Shown here in pieces: positions 11,277 through 20,401 of a stretch of 64,000 nt of DNA; the first letter of the stretch is position 1; every line of letters begins with the position of its first letter. Made by a program: the position numbers and the translations under genes. This stretch comes from Verrucomicrobia bacterium LW23 (GTDB lineage Bacteria; Verrucomicrobiota; Verrucomicrobiia; Methylacidiphilales; UBA1321): positions 372,001 through 436,000 of the forward strand of contig QAZA01000056.1 in NCBI GenBank assembly GCA_003054695.1, given 5' to 3'. The notes beneath the pieces were generated by a model. It saw only the letters and a list, made by a program, of their open reading frames with translations. It ran no database searches and was not told the DNA's origin.

Positions 11277-14200
11277 TTAAAGCTCCGGGATGCTTGAATC
11301 GCTCAGCAGGAACTCCAGATCCGCCATGGTGAGACTGGACGTAAAGCCTTGCTCGCCAAAGACATCCTTGAAGAGCTGGGCTTTGTGCTGCTGCAGCTGG
11401 TAAATCTTCTCCTCCACCGTGTCGCGCGTGACGAGGCGGTAGGCGATGACGGTGCGATCCTGGCCAATACGGTGCGTTCGGTCGATCGCCTGGGCTTCGA
11501 CGGCGGGGTTCCACCACGGGTCGTACAGGATCACGTAGCTCGCGCTCGTGAGGTTAAGGCCCGTGCCGGCCGCCTTGAGGCTGAGCAGGAACACCGCCGG
11601 GCGCGAGTCGTTCTGGAAATCCTCCACGATCTTGCCGCGATTCGTCGTCTGGCCCGTCAGCAGGTAATAGGGCCGCTCCTTGGCCTCAAGCTCGCGCTGC
11701 AAAATCTTGAGCATCTCCACAAACTGGCTGAATACCAACACCTTATGGCCGCCCGCATACAGCGGATCGATCAGATCAAAGAACGCCGAGGTTTTGCCGG
11801 AGCCCACGTTTTTCTTCGCGCCGGCCAGCGCGGGATGGCAGCAGATTTGCCGCAGCCGCGTCAACGCCGCCAGGGCGTGGATGCGCGTTTGCTGATCCGC
11901 GGGGTCCAACTGCGTCCAGGCCTGGCGCATGCGCATCAGCTCCGTCAGATAAAACTCGCGCTGAGCGGGCAGCAGTTCGCAGTCAATGCGCTCCTCAATG
12001 CGATCCGGCAGGTCGCGCGCCACCTGGCTCTTCAGGCGCCGCAGGATAAACGGGCGCATGCGCGCCGCCAGCCGTTGCCGGCCCTGGGGGCTGCCATCCT
12101 TGTCATACTGCTCCGCAAAGTGGGTGCGCCCCGGCAGGTAACCCGGCGCGATAAACTCGCTCAGGCTCCAGAGATCGAGCAGGCGATTCTCCAGCGGCGT
12201 GCCGGTCAGCGCCAGGCGATGGTCGCTTTGCAGCGAGCGCGCGGCGCGGGCGGCCAGGCTGTCGGGATTCTTGATGTACTGCGCTTCGTCCAGAATAATG
12301 GCGCTGAACGGAAACTTCTTTAGCTCAGCCACATCGCAACGCAGCAGCGCGTAGTTGGTAATGATAAGATCGTGCTGCGGAATCGTCCGCCGCAGGCTGT
12401 GCCGCTGTGTGCCGGCCGTCAGCACCAGCACCCGCAGGCCCGGCGTAAACTGCGCTGCCTCGCGCGCCCAGTTAAACACAACCGAACTGGGGCAAATCAC
12501 CAGCGAGGGGCCCGCGTTCTTCGTCTCGCGCAAATGCTGCAGCCAGGCCAGCGCCTGCACCGTTTTGCCCAGGCCCATGTCGTCCGCCAGAATGGCGCCC
12601 AGCTTAAGGGATGAGGAGTAGGCCAGGAAGTTCAGGCCCTCCCGCTGGTACGGGCGCAGTGTGGCGTGCAGGCCTTTCGGCAGCTCAATTTCCGGCACGC
12701 CTTCAAAGTCCTTAACGGCATCGCGCAGCTTGTTCAGCTCCCCCTGCCAGCTCGTGGTTGCCGAGCGCTCCAGCTTGGCCCATGTCTCTGCGTTGGAGCC
12801 ACTTAGCTGCATGGTGCTGACGCGTTGCTCCTCCTGCCGCATGCCCAGCCCTAGGTCGGCCAGCGCGGTGGCAAACTCGTCCAGCTCCTGCGCGTCCTCC
12901 TTGCTGATCCACGAGCCGTCCTTCAGCTTCACGTACGGGTCGGCCGTCTGGCGCAGCTTCATCCAGTCTTCTTCCGTCAGCTTAAGGCACTCCTCTTCCC
13001 ACTCGGTCTTGACAGTAAACCAGTCGATACCCGTAGACTGGATCTTGACCTTGGGAAAGAGCGAGCGCTTGTTTTCAATAAGCGCCTGGAACCTCTTGTT
13101 GCCAAAGCACTTCCACAGCGGCGAGCGATCCTGCCACAGCTTCACCACACGCGCGATCTCCCGCCCCGTAAGGTGCAGAAACACGCCCGGCTCGTCCGTA
13201 CGGCCGCACAGGTCGCCATTTTCCGCGCCCCACTGGTCCAGCCAGGTAAGCGCGCCTTCCACGTCGTGTTCCGCCGGGACTTCGTCCCAAACCTCGCCAA
13301 GTGGCTCGGCGATAACCACTTCCGCCTCCATGTACGTCTCGTCGCCATCCTCCGCCTCGTAGGCGGCGGCGGCCAGCGGGTTCACTGGCTCCTCAGTGCC
13401 ATGATGCGCGCTGTGGCCACTGGCGTGCCCATTGCCATTGGCATGGCCGCTGCCATTGGCGTGATGGTGCGAATCGTGCGCGCCGAGATCCTTGCCGTTG
13501 CCGTTGCGGTGCGCGCCGTTGCCATTTGCGCCTGCGCCGGCATCCTTATCCTTGCCATTGCCGTGGTGCCCGTTGCCGTTCCGCACCGCCGCAATCGCCG
13601 TTTTGGGCGAGGCCGACGCCCAGCCGCCATGCGTCCACTCCCACAAATGCCCGCCCTTTAGCGAGACGGCCTGCAGGCGAATGTTCAACATGTCATCGGG
13701 CGCCAGCGCAAACAGGAAGGTGACGTTGCAGCGGATCTGCCGCAAATGCTCGCGCACACCCGCCTGCAGGCCGGGGAATTTCTTGAGCAAACTGGGCAGC
13801 AAATTGCGCGCGCTGGCCGCCTGAAAACGCGATGGCCCGTTGCGCAGTGTTACCAGCAAAAGCTTGCGCGGCGGCCTCTCGCGAATGCGATAAAACCGCC
13901 CCCGCGCCAGCACCAGCTCAATATCCAGCGCCGCCGTTTCCTCATTGGCGCACAGGAAGAACGTGGCCTCCGACAGCGGAACTGCTTCGTCCTCACCCAC
14001 TTGCACCTCAAAATCGATGCTGATGTGCGTGGGCCGCGACCCGTTCTTACCGGCATCCGCCTTTAGCACGGGGACAATGCGCGCCGGCACGTGGGAGAAG
14101 TAAACGGAGGCGCCGTCCTCAAAATGCAGCCTTGTGTGGGAAGTTGCTGCGGGCAAAAGAGTTGCAGAGTCCGACGAAGCGGGCGGGGTGTCGCCCCATT

Positions 14201-14909
14201 GCTGCAGCCAGGCCAGCAGCGAGCGGTTGTCCGTCAGGAACGGGCTGCCATTCTTCTGCTTGTCGGACATCAAAAACGGCATGAAATCGTTCAGCCACCG
14301 CAGCATCGCCGCGTCCTCGTCCGTAAACATCTCCGGGCGATGCAACAGCTCCTGGCATAAACCCCTTACCTGGTGGTAGTTACGGCTGCCGTTGCGCACC
14401 TTGGCACTGTGCGCGCGCATGTCGATCGTCACCTCCGACCGCAAATGGATGATGTCCTTGCGCACCGTCCACACCAGCGAAAGATCGCGACGCGGCCCGC
14501 CGGTCGCCTCGGGCGGCGCCAGCCACAGCTGCAGCTCGCTCTGAAACTGCTCCAGCTCGTGCGCTCGTTGCTCCGCGGCAAAGTCGGGGCGATCCACCCA
14601 CGGCTGCAGGCACGCCGGCACGCGGCCGCCGGTGCGCAGCGCAATCTCCTGGCACAGGCGCCACGCAAGTTTGTCCGGGTTGGCTTCGCGGCAAATCACG
14701 CTCCACACCGCGGGGGAATCAAAGAAGTCGGGCAGATCTATCTGCTCGTGCTTCAAAATCTCCGTGAGTTGCAGCAACCGGTCAAACTCGTTCCGCGCGC
14801 GGAACAGCTTGACGATGGGCGCGGGGATCGCGGAGGGATCCATGCGCGCCGCGGGCATCGGCGGCTGCAGAACTCGTTCCCGTTTTTGAGCGGCGAGGTG
14901 CTTAGGCAT
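11277..14909 (-). CDS. SNF2-family DNA-dependent ATPase/helicase
   Basis: A 1210-residue protein. The long N-terminal region (1-740) is not a recognised catalytic domain. It includes a low-complexity Gly/Asn/His/Ala stretch at about residues 436-510 made of GNG, HHGNG and GHANGNGH units. The ATPase starts with LGAILADDMGLGKTVQALAWL (Walker A near 775), then DEAQYIKNP (Walker B near 871), LTGTPLENRLLDLWSL, and the second RecA lobe with KVLVFSQFVEML, LSLKAAGTGLNL and AIDRTHRIGQDRTVIAYRL near 1140. Bacterial SNF2 enzymes remodel protein-DNA or RNA polymerase complexes. It is followed by a convergent inverted repeat. Confidence 0.95.
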   Translation of the reverse strand: MPKHLAAQKRERVLQPPMPAARMDPSAIPAPIVKLFRARNEFDRLLQLTEILKHEQIDLPDFFDSPAVWSVICREANPDKLAWRLCQEIALRTGGRVPACLQPWVDRPDFAAEQRAHELEQFQSELQLWLAPPEATGGPRRDLSLVWTVRKDIIHLRSEVTIDMRAHSAKVRNGSRNYHQVRGLCQELLHRPEMFTDEDAAMLRWLNDFMPFLMSDKQKNGSPFLTDNRSLLAWLQQWGDTPPASSDSATLLPAATSHTRLHFEDGASVYFSHVPARIVPVLKADAGKNGSRPTHISIDFEVQVGEDEAVPLSEATFFLCANEETAALDIELVLARGRFYRIRERPPRKLLLVTLRNGPSRFQAASARNLLPSLLKKFPGLQAGVREHLRQIRCNVTFLFALAPDDMLNIRLQAVSLKGGHLWEWTHGGWASASPKTAIAAVRNGNGHHGNGKDKDAGAGANGNGAHRNGNGKDLGAHDSHHHANGSGHANGNGHASGHSAHHGTEEPVNPLAAAAYEAEDGDETYMEAEVVIAEPLGEVWDEVPAEHDVEGALTWLDQWGAENGDLCGRTDEPGVFLHLTGREIARVVKLWQDRSPLWKCFGNKRFQALIENKRSLFPKVKIQSTGIDWFTVKTEWEEECLKLTEEDWMKLRQTADPYVKLKDGSWISKEDAQELDEFATALADLGLGMRQEEQRVSTMQLSGSNAETWAKLERSATTSWQGELNKLRDAVKDFEGVPEIELPKGLHATLRPYQREGLNFLAYSSSLKLGAILADDMGLGKTVQALAWLQHLRETKNAGPSLVICPSSVVFNWAREAAQFTPGLRVLVLTAGTQRHSLRRTIPQHDLIITNYALLRCDVAELKKFPFSAIILDEAQYIKNPDSLAARAARSLQSDHRLALTGTPLENRLLDLWSLSEFIAPGYLPGRTHFAEQYDKDGSPQGRQRLAARMRPFILRRLKSQVARDLPDRIEERIDCELLPAQREFYLTELMRMRQAWTQLDPADQQTRIHALAALTRLRQICCHPALAGAKKNVGSGKTSAFFDLIDPLYAGGHKVLVFSQFVEMLKILQRELEAKERPYYLLTGQTTNRGKIVEDFQNDSRPAVFLLSLKAAGTGLNLTSASYVILYDPWWNPAVEAQAIDRTHRIGQDRTVIAYRLVTRDTVEEKIYQLQQHKAQLFKDVFGEQGFTSSLTMADLEFLLSDSSIPEL

Positions 14910-15225: not shown

Positions 15226-16155
15226 TTATTTTGCCGCGCCCTCGCGAATCTCTGCTGGCCGACGCCCCGTTTGCCGCCGAAACCACGTTGCAAAGTGAGA
15301 GTCCGACAGAAAGCCCAGCCGGTACGCCATCTCCTTGACGGGCATTAGCGAGGTCTCCAGCCATTGCTGTGACTGCCGCAGGCGTCGCAAATCCCAGTAG
15401 CGGCGCGGGCTCATGGCAAACTCCTGCACAAAAAGCCGGTTTAGATGCACGTCGCTCAGCCCCGTTGCCTGATGTAAGTTGTTGCGAGGGAAGGGCTCCG
15501 AAAGCGGCGCCTCGTTCAGAAGCCGGGCCGCGCGGAGCGGCCGGTCGTCGCCGGAGCGAAGGCGCGTCCAGCCGGATCCGCGACGCAAATGGACCTCCAG
15601 CCAGCCCCCCAGCCATGTCAGGAACAGCGCCTGAAGGCGAAGAAAGATGCGGGGATCCGTAAGTTGTTGCGCCTGAAGGCGATGGTAGGGGCGTGGGGCC
15701 TCCGGACGCGCGGCTGCGGGCGAGCGACCCTGGCGATGGGCCCCGCCCTTCCCAAAGTGTTGCCGCACAAGGCGATCCATTCGCACGGCGCCTCGCTCCA
15801 GCTCAGGATGCTCCGCGCCTGGAAAGGCGATGATCCTATCGCTCGACACAAAATTCACTCCGGAGGGCCACTCGTGCACAAAGTGGAGCGAAACAATGTG
15901 CGTACCCGGCGGGCACTCGCTGCGGCATTCCCCCTCGGGCAAAAAGCACCACATGCCCGGCGTAATTTCCGCCTGCTCGGCCGCCGTCGTCAGGCGCACG
16001 CAACCGCTGCGCACAAACCAGGCAAAGTGGCCTCTGTTGCGCACCGCCGTCATCACGGGGGAGGGGATCGGAGCGTCGTACACCCACACCAGTTCCGTGC
16101 GCAGGCACGACCACTCGTGCATCGGCAACAGCAGAGGTACCTCGGCGGCTGGCAT
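15226..16155 (-). CDS. AraC-family transcriptional regulator
   Basis: A 309-residue regulator starting MPAAEVPLLLPMHEW. The open frame continues upstream through the divergent gene but loses similarity there. The N-terminal half is a cupin-type sensor (ITPGMWCFLPEGECRSECPPGTHIVSLHF). The C-terminal 100 residues carry two helix-turn-helix motifs: HQATGLSDVHLNRLFVQEF and then PVKEMAYRLGFLSDSHFATWFRRQTGRRP, the AraC signature. It is divergent from the BNR propeller gene with a 90-base shared promoter region, so it likely activates that gene in response to a sugar or related ligand. Confidence 0.93.
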   Translation of the reverse strand: MPAAEVPLLLPMHEWSCLRTELVWVYDAPIPSPVMTAVRNRGHFAWFVRSGCVRLTTAAEQAEITPGMWCFLPEGECRSECPPGTHIVSLHFVHEWPSGVNFVSSDRIIAFPGAEHPELERGAVRMDRLVRQHFGKGGAHRQGRSPAAARPEAPRPYHRLQAQQLTDPRIFLRLQALFLTWLGGWLEVHLRRGSGWTRLRSGDDRPLRAARLLNEAPLSEPFPRNNLHQATGLSDVHLNRLFVQEFAMSPRRYWDLRRLRQSQQWLETSLMPVKEMAYRLGFLSDSHFATWFRRQTGRRPAEIREGAAK

Positions 16156-16245
16156 GTACACATGATAAAAACAGTAAGTAAAAGATAAAGGCAAAAAGTG
16201 AGTCCGTATTGCAGGTTGTGCCGCACAAGCGCACGATCTGTGCCC

Positions 16246-17808
16246 ATGCAATCGACTTTTCTTCTGGAGGACATCGCATCGTGGGATCGCTCCAAGCCCT
16301 TCATCCGCAACGCGGTACGTACGGATGGCTACCGCGGTATCTGGTACGCACTCGGGTTCAGGTTTGAGTATGGCGACAAGTACTCCGGCGGCCTTGGGAC
16401 ATACACCGCCAACCACGTGCCGATGGCGGAATACGCGCCGGCCGTTAATCGCACCTACTTTACGTACGGAGGCACCACAGGGCCGGAAAGGCGCGAACTC
16501 GTCATCATGGCAGGCAGCTACGACCATGGGACACGGAATGTCCCTCGCCCTGTTGCTCTGTATCTGGATGTGGCTGTGGATGATCCGCATGACAATGCTG
16601 CGCTTCGCGTGGATGAATCTGGTCACATATGGGTGATGAAAAGCGGTCGCGGAACCAAGCGCCCCGGACTGGTCTTCCGCAGCACAAAGCCGCATTCGCT
16701 CGACGAGTGGGAACTCGTTAGCGTGCATGAGTTTACGTACCCGCAAATCTGGAAACGCTGGCTTCCAGTTCCAGGGACATCTGGTGTCCCTGGGACACGC
16801 AATGTCCCGGCTAGCGACGGCTTCTTTCTGATGCTGACCCGCTACACCTCCCAGCCCGGCAAAGGCCCCGCGCGTAACCTCTTCTGCCAGAAGAGTTCCG
16901 GTGGCGGACGCGAGTGGGGGGATGTGCAACGTCTGGCCGATTTTGGCGGGCATTACCAGACGAGCGGCCAGTGGATCGAGCGCGATGCTGAGGGCAAGCC
17001 CACCGGCCGCGGCAAAGTATGCACGTTCTTCAACTATCACCCGGGCAGCGATGTCGACAAGCGCACAAACCTCTACTTCATGCAAACCACGGACGAAGGC
17101 AAGACGTGGACAACGGCATGCGGCCATCCTCTGGAACTCCCTCTCAAGCAAATACTTAACGATGCGCTTGTCATCAACTACGAGGCACAGGGGCGCTGCA
17201 TGTACACCTGCGATCTCACCTTCGACAAACACGGTAACCCGTTGCTGCTGTGCATTATATCCCGCAAAGGCGAGCCCGGGCCGGCCGGCGGTGACCGCGA
17301 GTGGACAGTGCTGCACTGGCAGCCCGGCCCCGGCACCCCCGCATGGAAAACCCACGTGGTGGCCGTATCCGACCACAATTACGACATGGGCAGCCTCATC
17401 GTTGTCGGCGACGAATGGCGCATTATCGGCCCGACGGACAAGGCCCCGCAGCAGTGGGGCACGGGTGGCGAAATGGCGCTGTGGATCAGCCGCGCCCCCG
17501 ATGCGCAGGGCAACCGTACGTGGACGCGCGAGAGCGCCATCACGGGCGAGAAATCCGTCCTGGGCCAGGCCAGCGAGTTTAACCACAGCTATGCCCGACG
17601 CGCCCTTGGCGCCGCCGAACCCACGGAATTTGCGGCTTTCTGGGCTGATGGCCACCCCGGCCATCTCACCAGGTCGCAGCTGTATGTATGCGACAGCACG
17701 GGTGCCCAAGTGCTGCGGCTGCCGTACAACATGCCCGGCGATTCGGCCACGCTTGCCCCGCTAAGCGCGGGGGATCTCGCCGTAACAAGCTTGCAGACAG
17801 CAGGTTAG
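16246..17808 (+). CDS. BNR/Asp-box beta-propeller protein (BNR_4-like)
   Basis: A 520-residue protein starting MQSTFLLEDIASWDR. It looks like a sialidase-fold propeller: GYRGIWYALGF and TYTANHVPMAEYAPAVNRTYFTYGG near the N-terminus, an Asp-box TTDEGKTW at about 281-288, then LTFDKHGNPLLLCI and NHSYARRALG. BNR_4 proteins include polysaccharide lyases and unknown sugar-active enzymes; no signal peptide is seen at this start. Two dispersed palindromic repeats are read in frame, at residues about 95-100 (HGTRNVP) and 177-188 (VPGTSGVPGTRNVP), probably as surface-loop insertions. A further unit lies just after the stop. Probably controlled by the divergent AraC protein. Confidence 0.88.
   Translation: MQSTFLLEDIASWDRSKPFIRNAVRTDGYRGIWYALGFRFEYGDKYSGGLGTYTANHVPMAEYAPAVNRTYFTYGGTTGPERRELVIMAGSYDHGTRNVPRPVALYLDVAVDDPHDNAALRVDESGHIWVMKSGRGTKRPGLVFRSTKPHSLDEWELVSVHEFTYPQIWKRWLPVPGTSGVPGTRNVPASDGFFLMLTRYTSQPGKGPARNLFCQKSSGGGREWGDVQRLADFGGHYQTSGQWIERDAEGKPTGRGKVCTFFNYHPGSDVDKRTNLYFMQTTDEGKTWTTACGHPLELPLKQILNDALVINYEAQGRCMYTCDLTFDKHGNPLLLCIISRKGEPGPAGGDREWTVLHWQPGPGTPAWKTHVVAVSDHNYDMGSLIVVGDEWRIIGPTDKAPQQWGTGGEMALWISRAPDAQGNRTWTRESAITGEKSVLGQASEFNHSYARRALGAAEPTEFAAFWADGHPGHLTRSQLYVCDSTGAQVLRLPYNMPGDSATLAPLSAGDLAVTSLQTAG
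16528..16544. repeat. Palindromic repeat unit inside BNR gene
   Basis: GGGACA-CGGAA-TGTCCC, a 6-bp-armed palindrome of 17 bases. It is translated as part of GTRNVP without disturbing the frame. Same family as units at 16774, 16792, 17830, 22514-22566, 44810-44844 and 47652-47686. Confidence 0.9.
16774..16808. repeat. Two tandem palindromic units inside BNR gene
   Basis: GGGACA-TCTGG-TGTCCC (16774-16790) and GGGACA-CGCAA-TGTCCC (16792-16808) are spaced exactly 18 bases apart, adding two hexapeptides (GTSGVP, GTRNVP). The single base between them is T. The reading frame relative to the palindrome is the same as at 16528. Confidence 0.92.
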
Positions 17809-17871: not shown

Positions 17872-19041
17872 CTAGTTGGCCTGCGGCGCCCGCACGCGCT
17901 TCGGCACTACCCACTCGTTGTCAATGTCATTGTACCCGGTGTAGCGCACCATGTAGAGGCCGCGCTCGCTCTTGACAACGGTGCCGGGCCACCACTTTTT
18001 GCGCCACTCAATCTCTACGGCGGTGCCGTTTTTCATCGGCAGGGTGGTGTCATACGGGCGCAGTTTATCGGCGCTCAGCCACGAGTCATAGCTTTTGGCC
18101 CAGCCGACCCAGGTTACCAGAAATTTGTCGTCCTTGCTGTCTAAGATCTTGACCTTGTACCACTTACCCTGGTCTTCTCCCTCCAGACGCTCGCCGGCGC
18201 GGGGTGCCTTCTTGCCGGTGGCCTTGGCTATTACCAGGCCGGGGGAGAAGAAAGTACCGGGGCGGGGCAGGTAGGTCGTGCGCTGGCCCTCCATAAACGA
18301 CATCTCGTCGTCCGCGTAAGTGGCTACCTCTTGCAGGGTTATGTCGCCATCGCCGTTCAGGTCAAGCAGCGGGCTGCCATTGATGGCGTCGGTCAGCACC
18401 TGGGTAAACGTCCAGTTGCCGGTGCTGGTGCTGCTGGCCTTGCTGCTCGTAAGCACAGCCATGGGGATTCGCCCGGCGTTGCGATAGACTTCTTCCTGAA
18501 GGGCGCCGCTGTAGCAGCAGTCGGCCGTCAGCAAAACGCGGTTACCCGGGAAGTTCTTGACGATAGATTTGACCACCGAGGCCATCCGCCAGTCTTCTTC
18601 CGTGTCGTAAGTCATCAGGCTAACGGGGCGCGTCGGCTGCTTGTAGTCACGCGATCCGTGGCCGGAATAGTAGAAGATAAATGTATCGCCCTTGCCGGCT
18701 TTTGCGGCAAATTCGGCCAGCTGTTCCTCCAGCTCTTCCCTGGTACCATCTTTGTTCTTGATGTACAGAATCTGCTCATCCGGCACACCGCGGTTTCGGT
18801 AGGCCTGAATCATCTTGTCATCCACGCGGCTGTGGTCCGGCCACGACGTGATGCTCTTGTCATCGTACTGGATTATGCCTGCAGCGAATATCCATGTCGA
18901 CTTGGGGTCCCACTCGTTGCGGGTGCCCTGTGCCGACGCAGCGGTGGCGCAGAGGAGCGCGGAAGTGCATACAAGCAGCGCCGCGGTGGCAATGCGGCGG
19001 AAAAGCATCCGGCCGGAGACAGCTGGTTCAGACGTGATCAT
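17872..19041 (-). CDS. Secreted caspase-fold peptidase with EF-hand loop and two chromo-barrel/Tudor-like domains
   Basis: A 389-residue protein. The ATG at 19041 has GAGG seven bases upstream and starts a signal peptide ending at about TAASAQ. The caspase domain (about 40-220) has catalytic His128 in FYYSGHGSR and Cys176 in TADCCYSG, the DxCxSG arrangement of metacaspases. Residues 227-238 (DLNGDGDITLQE) form a canonical EF-hand calcium loop. Two C-terminal repeats follow: 283-330 with FLVTWVGWAKSYDSWLSADK and 339-383 with YMVRYTGYNDIDNEWV. Both match the V-x-Y/W-x-G-W...W pattern of chromo-barrel/Tudor-knot/Agenet folds. Export, calcium loop and paired barrels together are unusual. Substrate and partner are unknown. 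Confidence 0.9.
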   Translation of the reverse strand: MITSEPAVSGRMLFRRIATAALLVCTSALLCATAASAQGTRNEWDPKSTWIFAAGIIQYDDKSITSWPDHSRVDDKMIQAYRNRGVPDEQILYIKNKDGTREELEEQLAEFAAKAGKGDTFIFYYSGHGSRDYKQPTRPVSLMTYDTEEDWRMASVVKSIVKNFPGNRVLLTADCCYSGALQEEVYRNAGRIPMAVLTSSKASSTSTGNWTFTQVLTDAINGSPLLDLNGDGDITLQEVATYADDEMSFMEGQRTTYLPRPGTFFSPGLVIAKATGKKAPRAGERLEGEDQGKWYKVKILDSKDDKFLVTWVGWAKSYDSWLSADKLRPYDTTLPMKNGTAVEIEWRKKWWPGTVVKSERGLYMVRYTGYNDIDNEWVVPKRVRAPQAN

Positions 19042-19355
19042 AAAGAAGCCTCGCGAATGGAGGCGGGTGGTTGAATGTGAAGGAGAAACGAACGCCTGGC
19101 CGCGACTTGTCGAAGAATTCAAACGGCTTTTCCCCGCCACCCAAGTGATGCCGCCGCCCTTTCGAGCGTGTCATTTCCAACACGTTACTCATTAGCTACA
19201 CGTAATCCGCGCCCGCTGCAAATGTTTGATGGGACCGAATCTCATTTTGGAGTGAACGAGAGGGCCCGAGGATCCCGCGCTTTCCATCCGCGCCAGCCAC
19301 TTGCCTGATGCGTTGTCAGCATCCACGTGCTACAATGCAGCCAACACTTGCACCC
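19042..19355. other. Gene-free spacer between divergent genes
   Basis: About 314 bases that must hold the promoters of the caspase gene (minus) and the next gene (plus). An in-frame extension of the caspase frame into this region (to 19140) has no signal-peptide logic. No repeat or RNA gene was recognised. Confidence 0.45.
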
Positions 19356-19898: not shown

Positions 19899-19939
19899 AA
19901 TGTCTTGTGGAGAGGGAACCGTCTGGAGTTTGTGTGAAC

Positions 19940-20401
19940 ATGGTGGATAAGGACACTTCGGCCCATCGCGCTGGCCGGCCCATGCGCATTCTGTTTGTGT
20001 GCGGCAAAAATCTGCGTCGCAGTCCCACAGCCGAGGCGTTGTATCGTAACGATCCCCGCGTGCAGGCGCGCAGTGCAGGTGTCAGCGACAAGGCGCGCCG
20101 TCGCGTGCGAAGCGGCGATCTTCTCTGGGCCGACCTGATTCTTGTGATGGAATCCAAGCACGCAGCGCGCCTGCGCGAAGCCTGGCGGGAGGCGGAGCCG
20201 TGCGATGCTTACGGGGAGGTGACCGCGGACGATAGCCTGCACCCGGACGCTAACGGGCTGCACGCCAGTAATTTGCCGCGTGTGGAATGCCTCGATATCC
20301 CGGACGAATTCGAGTTTGGTGACCCGGAGTTGGTTGAGCTTCTCAAGCAGTCGGTTGAGCCCTGGCTGACGGATGTGGAGGGGCCGCCTGAGGGGACGTA
20401 G
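19940..20401 (+). CDS. Low-molecular-weight protein-tyrosine-phosphatase-like protein
   Basis: A 153-residue protein with ATG 19940 chosen for a GGAG 11 bases upstream; MRILFVCGKN at 19982 is the domain start. The P-loop reads FVCGKNLRRSPTAEALY, fitting CX5RS with the nucleophilic Cys and Arg. The usual DPY/DPW acid loop is replaced by LDIPDEFEF, as in a compact LMW-PTP subgroup. The region around residues 80-115 differs from classical LMW-PTP and may recognise a different phospho-substrate. Cytoplasmic. Confidence 0.88.
   Translation: MVDKDTSAHRAGRPMRILFVCGKNLRRSPTAEALYRNDPRVQARSAGVSDKARRRVRSGDLLWADLILVMESKHAARLREAWREAEPCDAYGEVTADDSLHPDANGLHASNLPRVECLDIPDEFEFGDPELVELLKQSVEPWLTDVEGPPEGT

Follow-up and report, generated by a model that had tools for sequence, protein, structure and literature searches.

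A signal-bearing caspase-fold peptidase with an EF-hand-type loop and two Tudor/Agenet-like barrels in a verrucomicrobial genome

The stretch of DNA analysed here (the window, 64,000 nucleotides from Verrucomicrobia bacterium LW23) holds the gene of a caspase-fold cysteine peptidase with a signal sequence, a single EF-hand-type loop shortly after the active site, and two C-terminal barrels of the Tudor/Agenet kind. The protein is real, well conserved and of a described kind. Kaur, Iyer, Subramanian and Aravind reported secreted bacterial chromo-like domains in 2018, with caspase among the commonest partners, and their paper describes such domains joined to caspase-like peptidases from planctomycetes, cyanobacteria, bacteroidetes and chloroflexi (PMC5906684). 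An earlier note on this DNA, made from the letters alone, had dissected the protein correctly, and its exported caspase, EF loop and caged chromo/Tudor barrels all stand; its claim that the architecture was unknown among bacterial caspases was mistaken because of these published fusions, and its suggestion of host targeting is dealt with below. The constant place of the EF loop within the protease, and a change in which of the two barrels carries the complete aromatic cage, were not found in the part of the literature that was accessible, and are modest, testable additions. The features of the gene and its product are as follows.

17872 to 19041, minus strand: gene of the secreted caspase-EF loop-Tudor-Tudor protein, 389 aa; ATG at 19041, stop at 17874-17872
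18928 to 19041, minus strand: signal peptide, residues 1-38; MLFRRIATAALLVCTSALLCATAASA followed by Q, with an A-x-A site and likely cleavage after A37
18271 to 18912, minus strand: caspase-fold peptidase domain, approximately residues 44-257, from the Peptidase_C14 match (97-194) and fold search
18658 to 18660, minus strand: catalytic His128 (YYSGHG), invariant in 43/43 and aligned with the metacaspase His motif
18514 to 18516, minus strand: catalytic Cys176 (ADCCYSG), with Asp174 two residues ahead; both invariant in 43/43 and aligned with the TbMCA2 catalytic position and Asp211
18328 to 18363, minus strand: EF-hand loop DLNGDGDITLQE, residues 227-238, about 51 residues past the catalytic Cys, from motif, conservation and model
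18052 to 18195, minus strand: barrel 1, residues 283-330, from model and fold search; cage positions Y295, W311, W314 and Y318 (complete)
17884 to 18027, minus strand: barrel 2 (Agenet), residues 339-386; cage positions W351, Y367, Y370 and D374 (the fourth being Asp)

The open reading frame comprises 389 codons plus a stop and stays open upstream as far as a GTG at 19140, while a second in-frame ATG at 19008 opens the hydrophobic segment MLFRRIATAALLVCTSALLCATAASAQG, which has the look of a classical signal peptide. Judged by its N-terminal sequence, the product is therefore predicted to be exported from either ATG (19041 or 19008). Residues 10-37 are helical in the AlphaFold2 model, and a crude hydrophobicity scan finds a hydrophobic N-terminus in 41 of the 43 family members, so that the signal peptide proposed in the earlier note is borne out. 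Several homologues, for instance those from Ignavibacteriota, have lipoprotein-like N-termini, which fits action at the envelope.

The core is that of a peptidase of family C14 of the orthocaspase/metacaspase type, with the His-Cys dyad set in GHG and DCxSG motifs and a Pfam Peptidase_C14 score of 28.2 bits against a cut-off of 21.4 (residues 97-194). The earlier note had placed the dyad exactly, and R72, D74, H128, D174 and C176 are all invariant in 43 of 43 homologues; the invariance of the dyad, together with conservation of the EF loop among the same homologues, indicates that these features of the window are not due to chance. AlphaFold2, given the 43-row alignment as input, models the full protein with a mean pLDDT of 92.8 and a pTM of 0.87. 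In a fold search of the PDB the core returns MALT1, legumain and metacaspases on top, with E values down to 9e-9, as well as caspase-9, and comparison of the family profile with PDB sequences returns AtMC4, TbMCA2 and GSU0716 for the same region. Asp211 of TbMCA2 is a residue of the pocket for Arg or Lys (PMC6426788). Comparison of the S1 pockets aligns D174 with this residue, and the invariant D74 sits one residue off Asp95, the acidic S1 residue of TbMCA2, at a place where the alignment is uncertain. Cleavage after Arg or Lys at P1 is thus a prediction that D174 fits.

Compared to the metacaspases and the paracaspase (AtMCA-IIf, TbMCA2 and MALT1; C14B), with which it shares the caspase fold, the His-Cys dyad and the Asp before the Cys, the window protein differs in its export signal and C-terminal Tudor barrels, in the low identity of the fold matches (10-17%), and in having an EF-hand loop, which may replace the metacaspase calcium site or add to it. 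Legumain (C13) is likewise an extracytoplasmic cysteine peptidase with a caspase-like fold (match E 1e-7), but the Pfam C13 score of the window protein is under the cut-off, and the protein has Tudor barrels and no legumain pro-domain.

The loop at residues 227-238 has acidic residues or Asn at positions 1, 3 and 5, Gly at 6, a hydrophobic residue at 8 and Glu at 12, and in the model its residues 233-235 (positions 7-9 of the loop) form a short strand that leads into a helix at 236-251, as in a canonical EF loop. Among the 43 homologues the characteristic residues are retained at D1 (40/43), D/N3 (40/43), D/N5 (39/43), G6 (36/43), I/V/L8 (43/43) and E/D12 (40/43), and the spacing from the catalytic Cys is 51 or 52 residues in 40 of 43. 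The calcium loop of the earlier note is thus confirmed in position, motif and conservation. A paired helix-loop-helix EF-hand is not seen in the model, and Pfam EF-hand_5 falls under its cut-off on the window protein; since the helix ahead of the loop (211-220) stops six residues short of it, the model suggests a single EF-like loop rather than a paired EF-hand. Relatives without barrels, from Bacteroidota and Caenarcaniphilales (L076, L077, L078 and L080), keep the loop at the same spacing, which argues that it belongs to a caspase subtype rather than being a domain added to it. These relatives are short caspases of 237-276 aa that lack a signal sequence and have the core at their very N-terminus. 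An EF-hand motif is known in a few archaeal orthocaspases (PMC6426788). The loop was not found in about 40 caspases of other clades, nor its pattern in the three other C14 proteins of the window genome, and the idea that it is a general feature of bacterial caspases was rejected, as most of the other C14 proteins examined lack it; two of these (L008 and L015) do have a similar loop, somewhat farther from the Cys. Only three Rifleibacteriota members (L051, L054 and L056) have clearly lost the loop, yet they keep the catalytic dyad intact, so that not every member can depend on calcium; these three are natural controls for calcium dependence.

The two C-terminal barrels are SH3-like five-strand barrels of Tudor-type sequence and fold and belong to the Royal family (Tudor/Agenet/chromo/MBT), as the earlier note had anticipated; it gave the second barrel as residues 339-383. 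Barrel 2 matches Pfam Agenet at 34.1 bits against a cut-off of 27 (residues 342-386); the Chromo and Tudor-knot matches of barrel 1 are under their cut-offs, yet the barrel is clear in the model, and among the 43 aligned members Tudor-knot is found in 35 and Agenet in 29. Modelled alone, the barrels reach a pLDDT of 95.4, and a fold search with them returns NtAGDP3, ADCP1, FMRP/FXR, Sgf29, L3MBTL3, 53BP1 and SETDB1; most of the 31 PDB matches with E<=1e-3 are to plant Agenet readers of H3K9me2, FMRP/FXR, MBT, 53BP1 and Sgf29. Plant Agenet pairs and FXR2 also enter on the tail when the full model is searched, and the family profile finds EAF3/MRG chromo-barrels and FXR1/FMRP tandem Tudors among PDB sequences. 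The bacterial SH3 domain is absent from the best 50 fold matches of the barrels, and the SH3b cell-wall-binder fold was rejected for them on this ground. Joint superposition of the pair on known tandem Tudors is poor (rmsd 8-14 A, TM about 0.4), which indicates that the single barrels match and their mutual arrangement differs. With the chromo-barrel of MRG15/EAF3, the tandem Tudor of FMRP/FXR and the Agenet pairs of plant ADCP1/AGDP, the barrels share the fold, the YxA...hY.G[YW]...W..EWV motif and the cage positions; unlike those, they are bacterial, extracytoplasmic by prediction, fused to a protease and differently placed, and their ligand binding is a prediction.

Alignment with the MRG/EAF3 barrels was used to set the cage positions. 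In 27 of 35 members, at least one barrel retains all four cage residues. Neither a cell-wall fold nor a missing cage, two outcomes that the earlier note had named as telling against its reading, was seen. In the clade that includes the window protein (n=10; support 94 in the caspase-domain tree) the fourth cage residue of barrel 2 is Asp in all ten members, a single change on that tree, and the barrel 1 cage is complete in eight; among the other 25 proteins, the cage is complete in barrel 2 in 19 to 21 and in barrel 1 in two. From these aligned positions it looks as though the barrel that holds the full reader site changed in the Planctomycetota/Verrucomicrobiota clade, a sequence pattern drawn from that one clade. 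Methyl-lysine is a candidate ligand. Aromatic cages also bind other cations or act as plain peptide grooves, and we know of no bacterial Tudor- or chromo-like barrel with a demonstrated ligand.

A profile scan of species genomes yielded about 43 relatives, most of them with both barrels. The order caspase, loop, barrels recurs in about 40 relatives from some ten phyla, nearly all with a signal sequence; absence of the architecture elsewhere, which the earlier note had also named as telling against its reading, was therefore not seen. The relatives come from Planctomycetota, Verrucomicrobiota, Myxococcota, Acidobacteriota, Rifleibacteriota, Melainabacteria, Spirochaetota, Elusimicrobiota, Ignavibacteriota, Bacteroidota and Vulcanimicrobiota, mostly as metagenome bins, several of them from ponds, groundwater and other environments, and this wide but patchy distribution would fit horizontal spread. 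Two full-length relatives (44% and 28% identity) were found in 388 genomes of the same phylum, and a one-barrel version is present in the same order. A single-sequence scan of genome contigs gave no match, and a plasmid search gave matches to the caspase core only. One 212-aa relative (L004, 1414-2052) stops soon past the catalytic Cys and is perhaps a truncated gene, the frame of another (L046) is apparently shifted, and the frame of one homologue also matches phosphatase families of the DSP/PTP type (PF22741, E 2.7e-19), an apparent further fusion. Within the window genome the gene is single-copy, with no full-length paralogue, and it is the only Agenet match, no second Agenet gene having been found. 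Three other C14 caspase genes lie within about 10 kb on another contig (C14, 86940-96964), one of them in a very long frame of 1669 codons. The neighbours of the gene in the window are these.

11277 to 14909, minus strand: SNF2-type helicase
15226 to 15960, minus strand: AraC-family regulator
16198 to 17808, plus strand: BNR_4 repeat protein
19907 to 20401, plus strand: low-molecular-weight phosphatase

None of the four looks functionally tied to the caspase. Among the relatives, no conserved neighbour gene or partner was found, the only recurrences being the gene's own antisense ORFs and the synteny of close Ignavibacteria genomes, and the neighbourhood therefore gives no independent pointer to a substrate.

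In its export signal, caspase-like domain and barrels with conserved cage aromatics, the window protein is of the type described by Kaur et al. (PMC5906684), whose proteins also combine a signal peptide and caspase-like domain with tandem caged barrels in planctomycetes and other Gram-negative carriers and count the EF-hand among linked domains; an EF loop at a fixed place inside the caspase domain and the cage change between barrels are not described in the accessible part of that paper.

From the sequence, fold class, conservation and export signal we infer, as the somewhat favoured reading of the whole protein, an envelope protease that needs calcium and is directed to its targets by the barrels, with calcium dependence, P1 preference, barrel ligand and location of action as its predicted elements. 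The Sec signal would take this clan CD (C14) cysteine peptidase out of the cytoplasm, probably to the periplasm or outer surface, where the loop downstream of the active site may bind extracytoplasmic calcium and help to order the active conformation. The barrels would act as a targeting module, keeping the enzyme bound to amine groups, peptide-linked and possibly N-methylated, of the envelope or extracellular matrix; tethered in this way in the periplasm, at the cell surface or within the matrix, it would cleave proteins on site, most likely after a basic residue.

How far calcium acts as a switch is nearly an even matter. The loop may be a structural site that merely stabilises an exported fold, as suggested by its being single and unpaired and by its presence in signal-less, barrel-less relatives, which makes it a fixed part of the caspase subtype; extracytoplasmic calcium is, moreover, usually high and steady. 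Against this, the loop lies near the active site in sequence, and metacaspase activity is gated by calcium. PMC6426788 cites Klemencic and Funk 2018 in this connection. The barrels, for their part, could be generic anchors to peptides or cell wall, SH3b-like in function, that simply tether the protease to murein or matrix peptides, a possibility we consider real if distinctly the less probable one. It would agree with the parallel fusions of bacterial SH3 and chromo-like domains to caspases, zincins and beta-lactamases noted in PMC5906684, with the loss of barrel 1 cage positions in many lineages, and with apparently exported proteins, from other genomes of the same class, that have two or three Agenet barrels and no protease, which point to a general extracytoplasmic module; the fold and sequence matches, however, are to Tudor/Agenet/MBT and not to SH3b, and a plain anchor would have no need of the full cage kept in at least one barrel by most members. 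In three such proteins (L007, L009 and L025) the two or three tandem Agenet/Tudor barrels precede a C-terminal region that is lipocalin-like.

Two further readings are very improbable. The resemblance of the barrels to chromatin readers is what prompts the idea, raised in the earlier note, of an effector acting on eukaryotic host histones or surface proteins, but the relatives are mostly metagenome bins, several of them environmental, spread over about ten phyla, the signal is of the ordinary Sec type with no secretion-system context, and bacterial chromo-like domains are regarded in PMC5906684 as ancestral to the eukaryotic ones; neither neighbours nor carriers gave supporting context, and the host-directed chromatin effector was rejected. 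Scarcely better is the prospect of a defence or programmed-death caspase of cytoplasmic type with an incidental leader. All 43 members do match the model of the EACC1-associated caspase (NCBIfam NF047832), the window protein over residues 58-247, and there is a weak PADLOC 'caspase' match; the score of 62.9 bits nevertheless compares with a cut-off of 140, a Pfam/NCBIfam search of the immediate neighbours found no EACC1 gene or defence match, and nearly all members keep the signal sequence. With similarity to PADLOC and EACC1 weak only, the defence-system caspase was rejected.

Methyl-lysine reading by bacterial chromo-like domains has itself been proposed as a hypothesis (PMC5906684). A more speculative extension of the targeted-protease reading, to which we give a rather small chance, is an extracellular "read-and-cut" system, in which a calcium-dependent caspase would be recruited by tandem readers of methyl-lysine or another methylammonium to modified envelope or matrix proteins, in a design ancestral to eukaryotic chromatin readers, barrel 1 having taken over the full-cage role from barrel 2 in the Planctomycetota/Verrucomicrobiota clade. 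The window protein is compact, with about 350 residues in its mature form, and combines a predicted protease activity with a discrete calcium site and two barrels modelled at high confidence. It is well suited to testing the proposal that the readers of histone marks in eukaryotes arose from extracellular peptide readers of bacteria, and to learning what exported bacterial caspases do.
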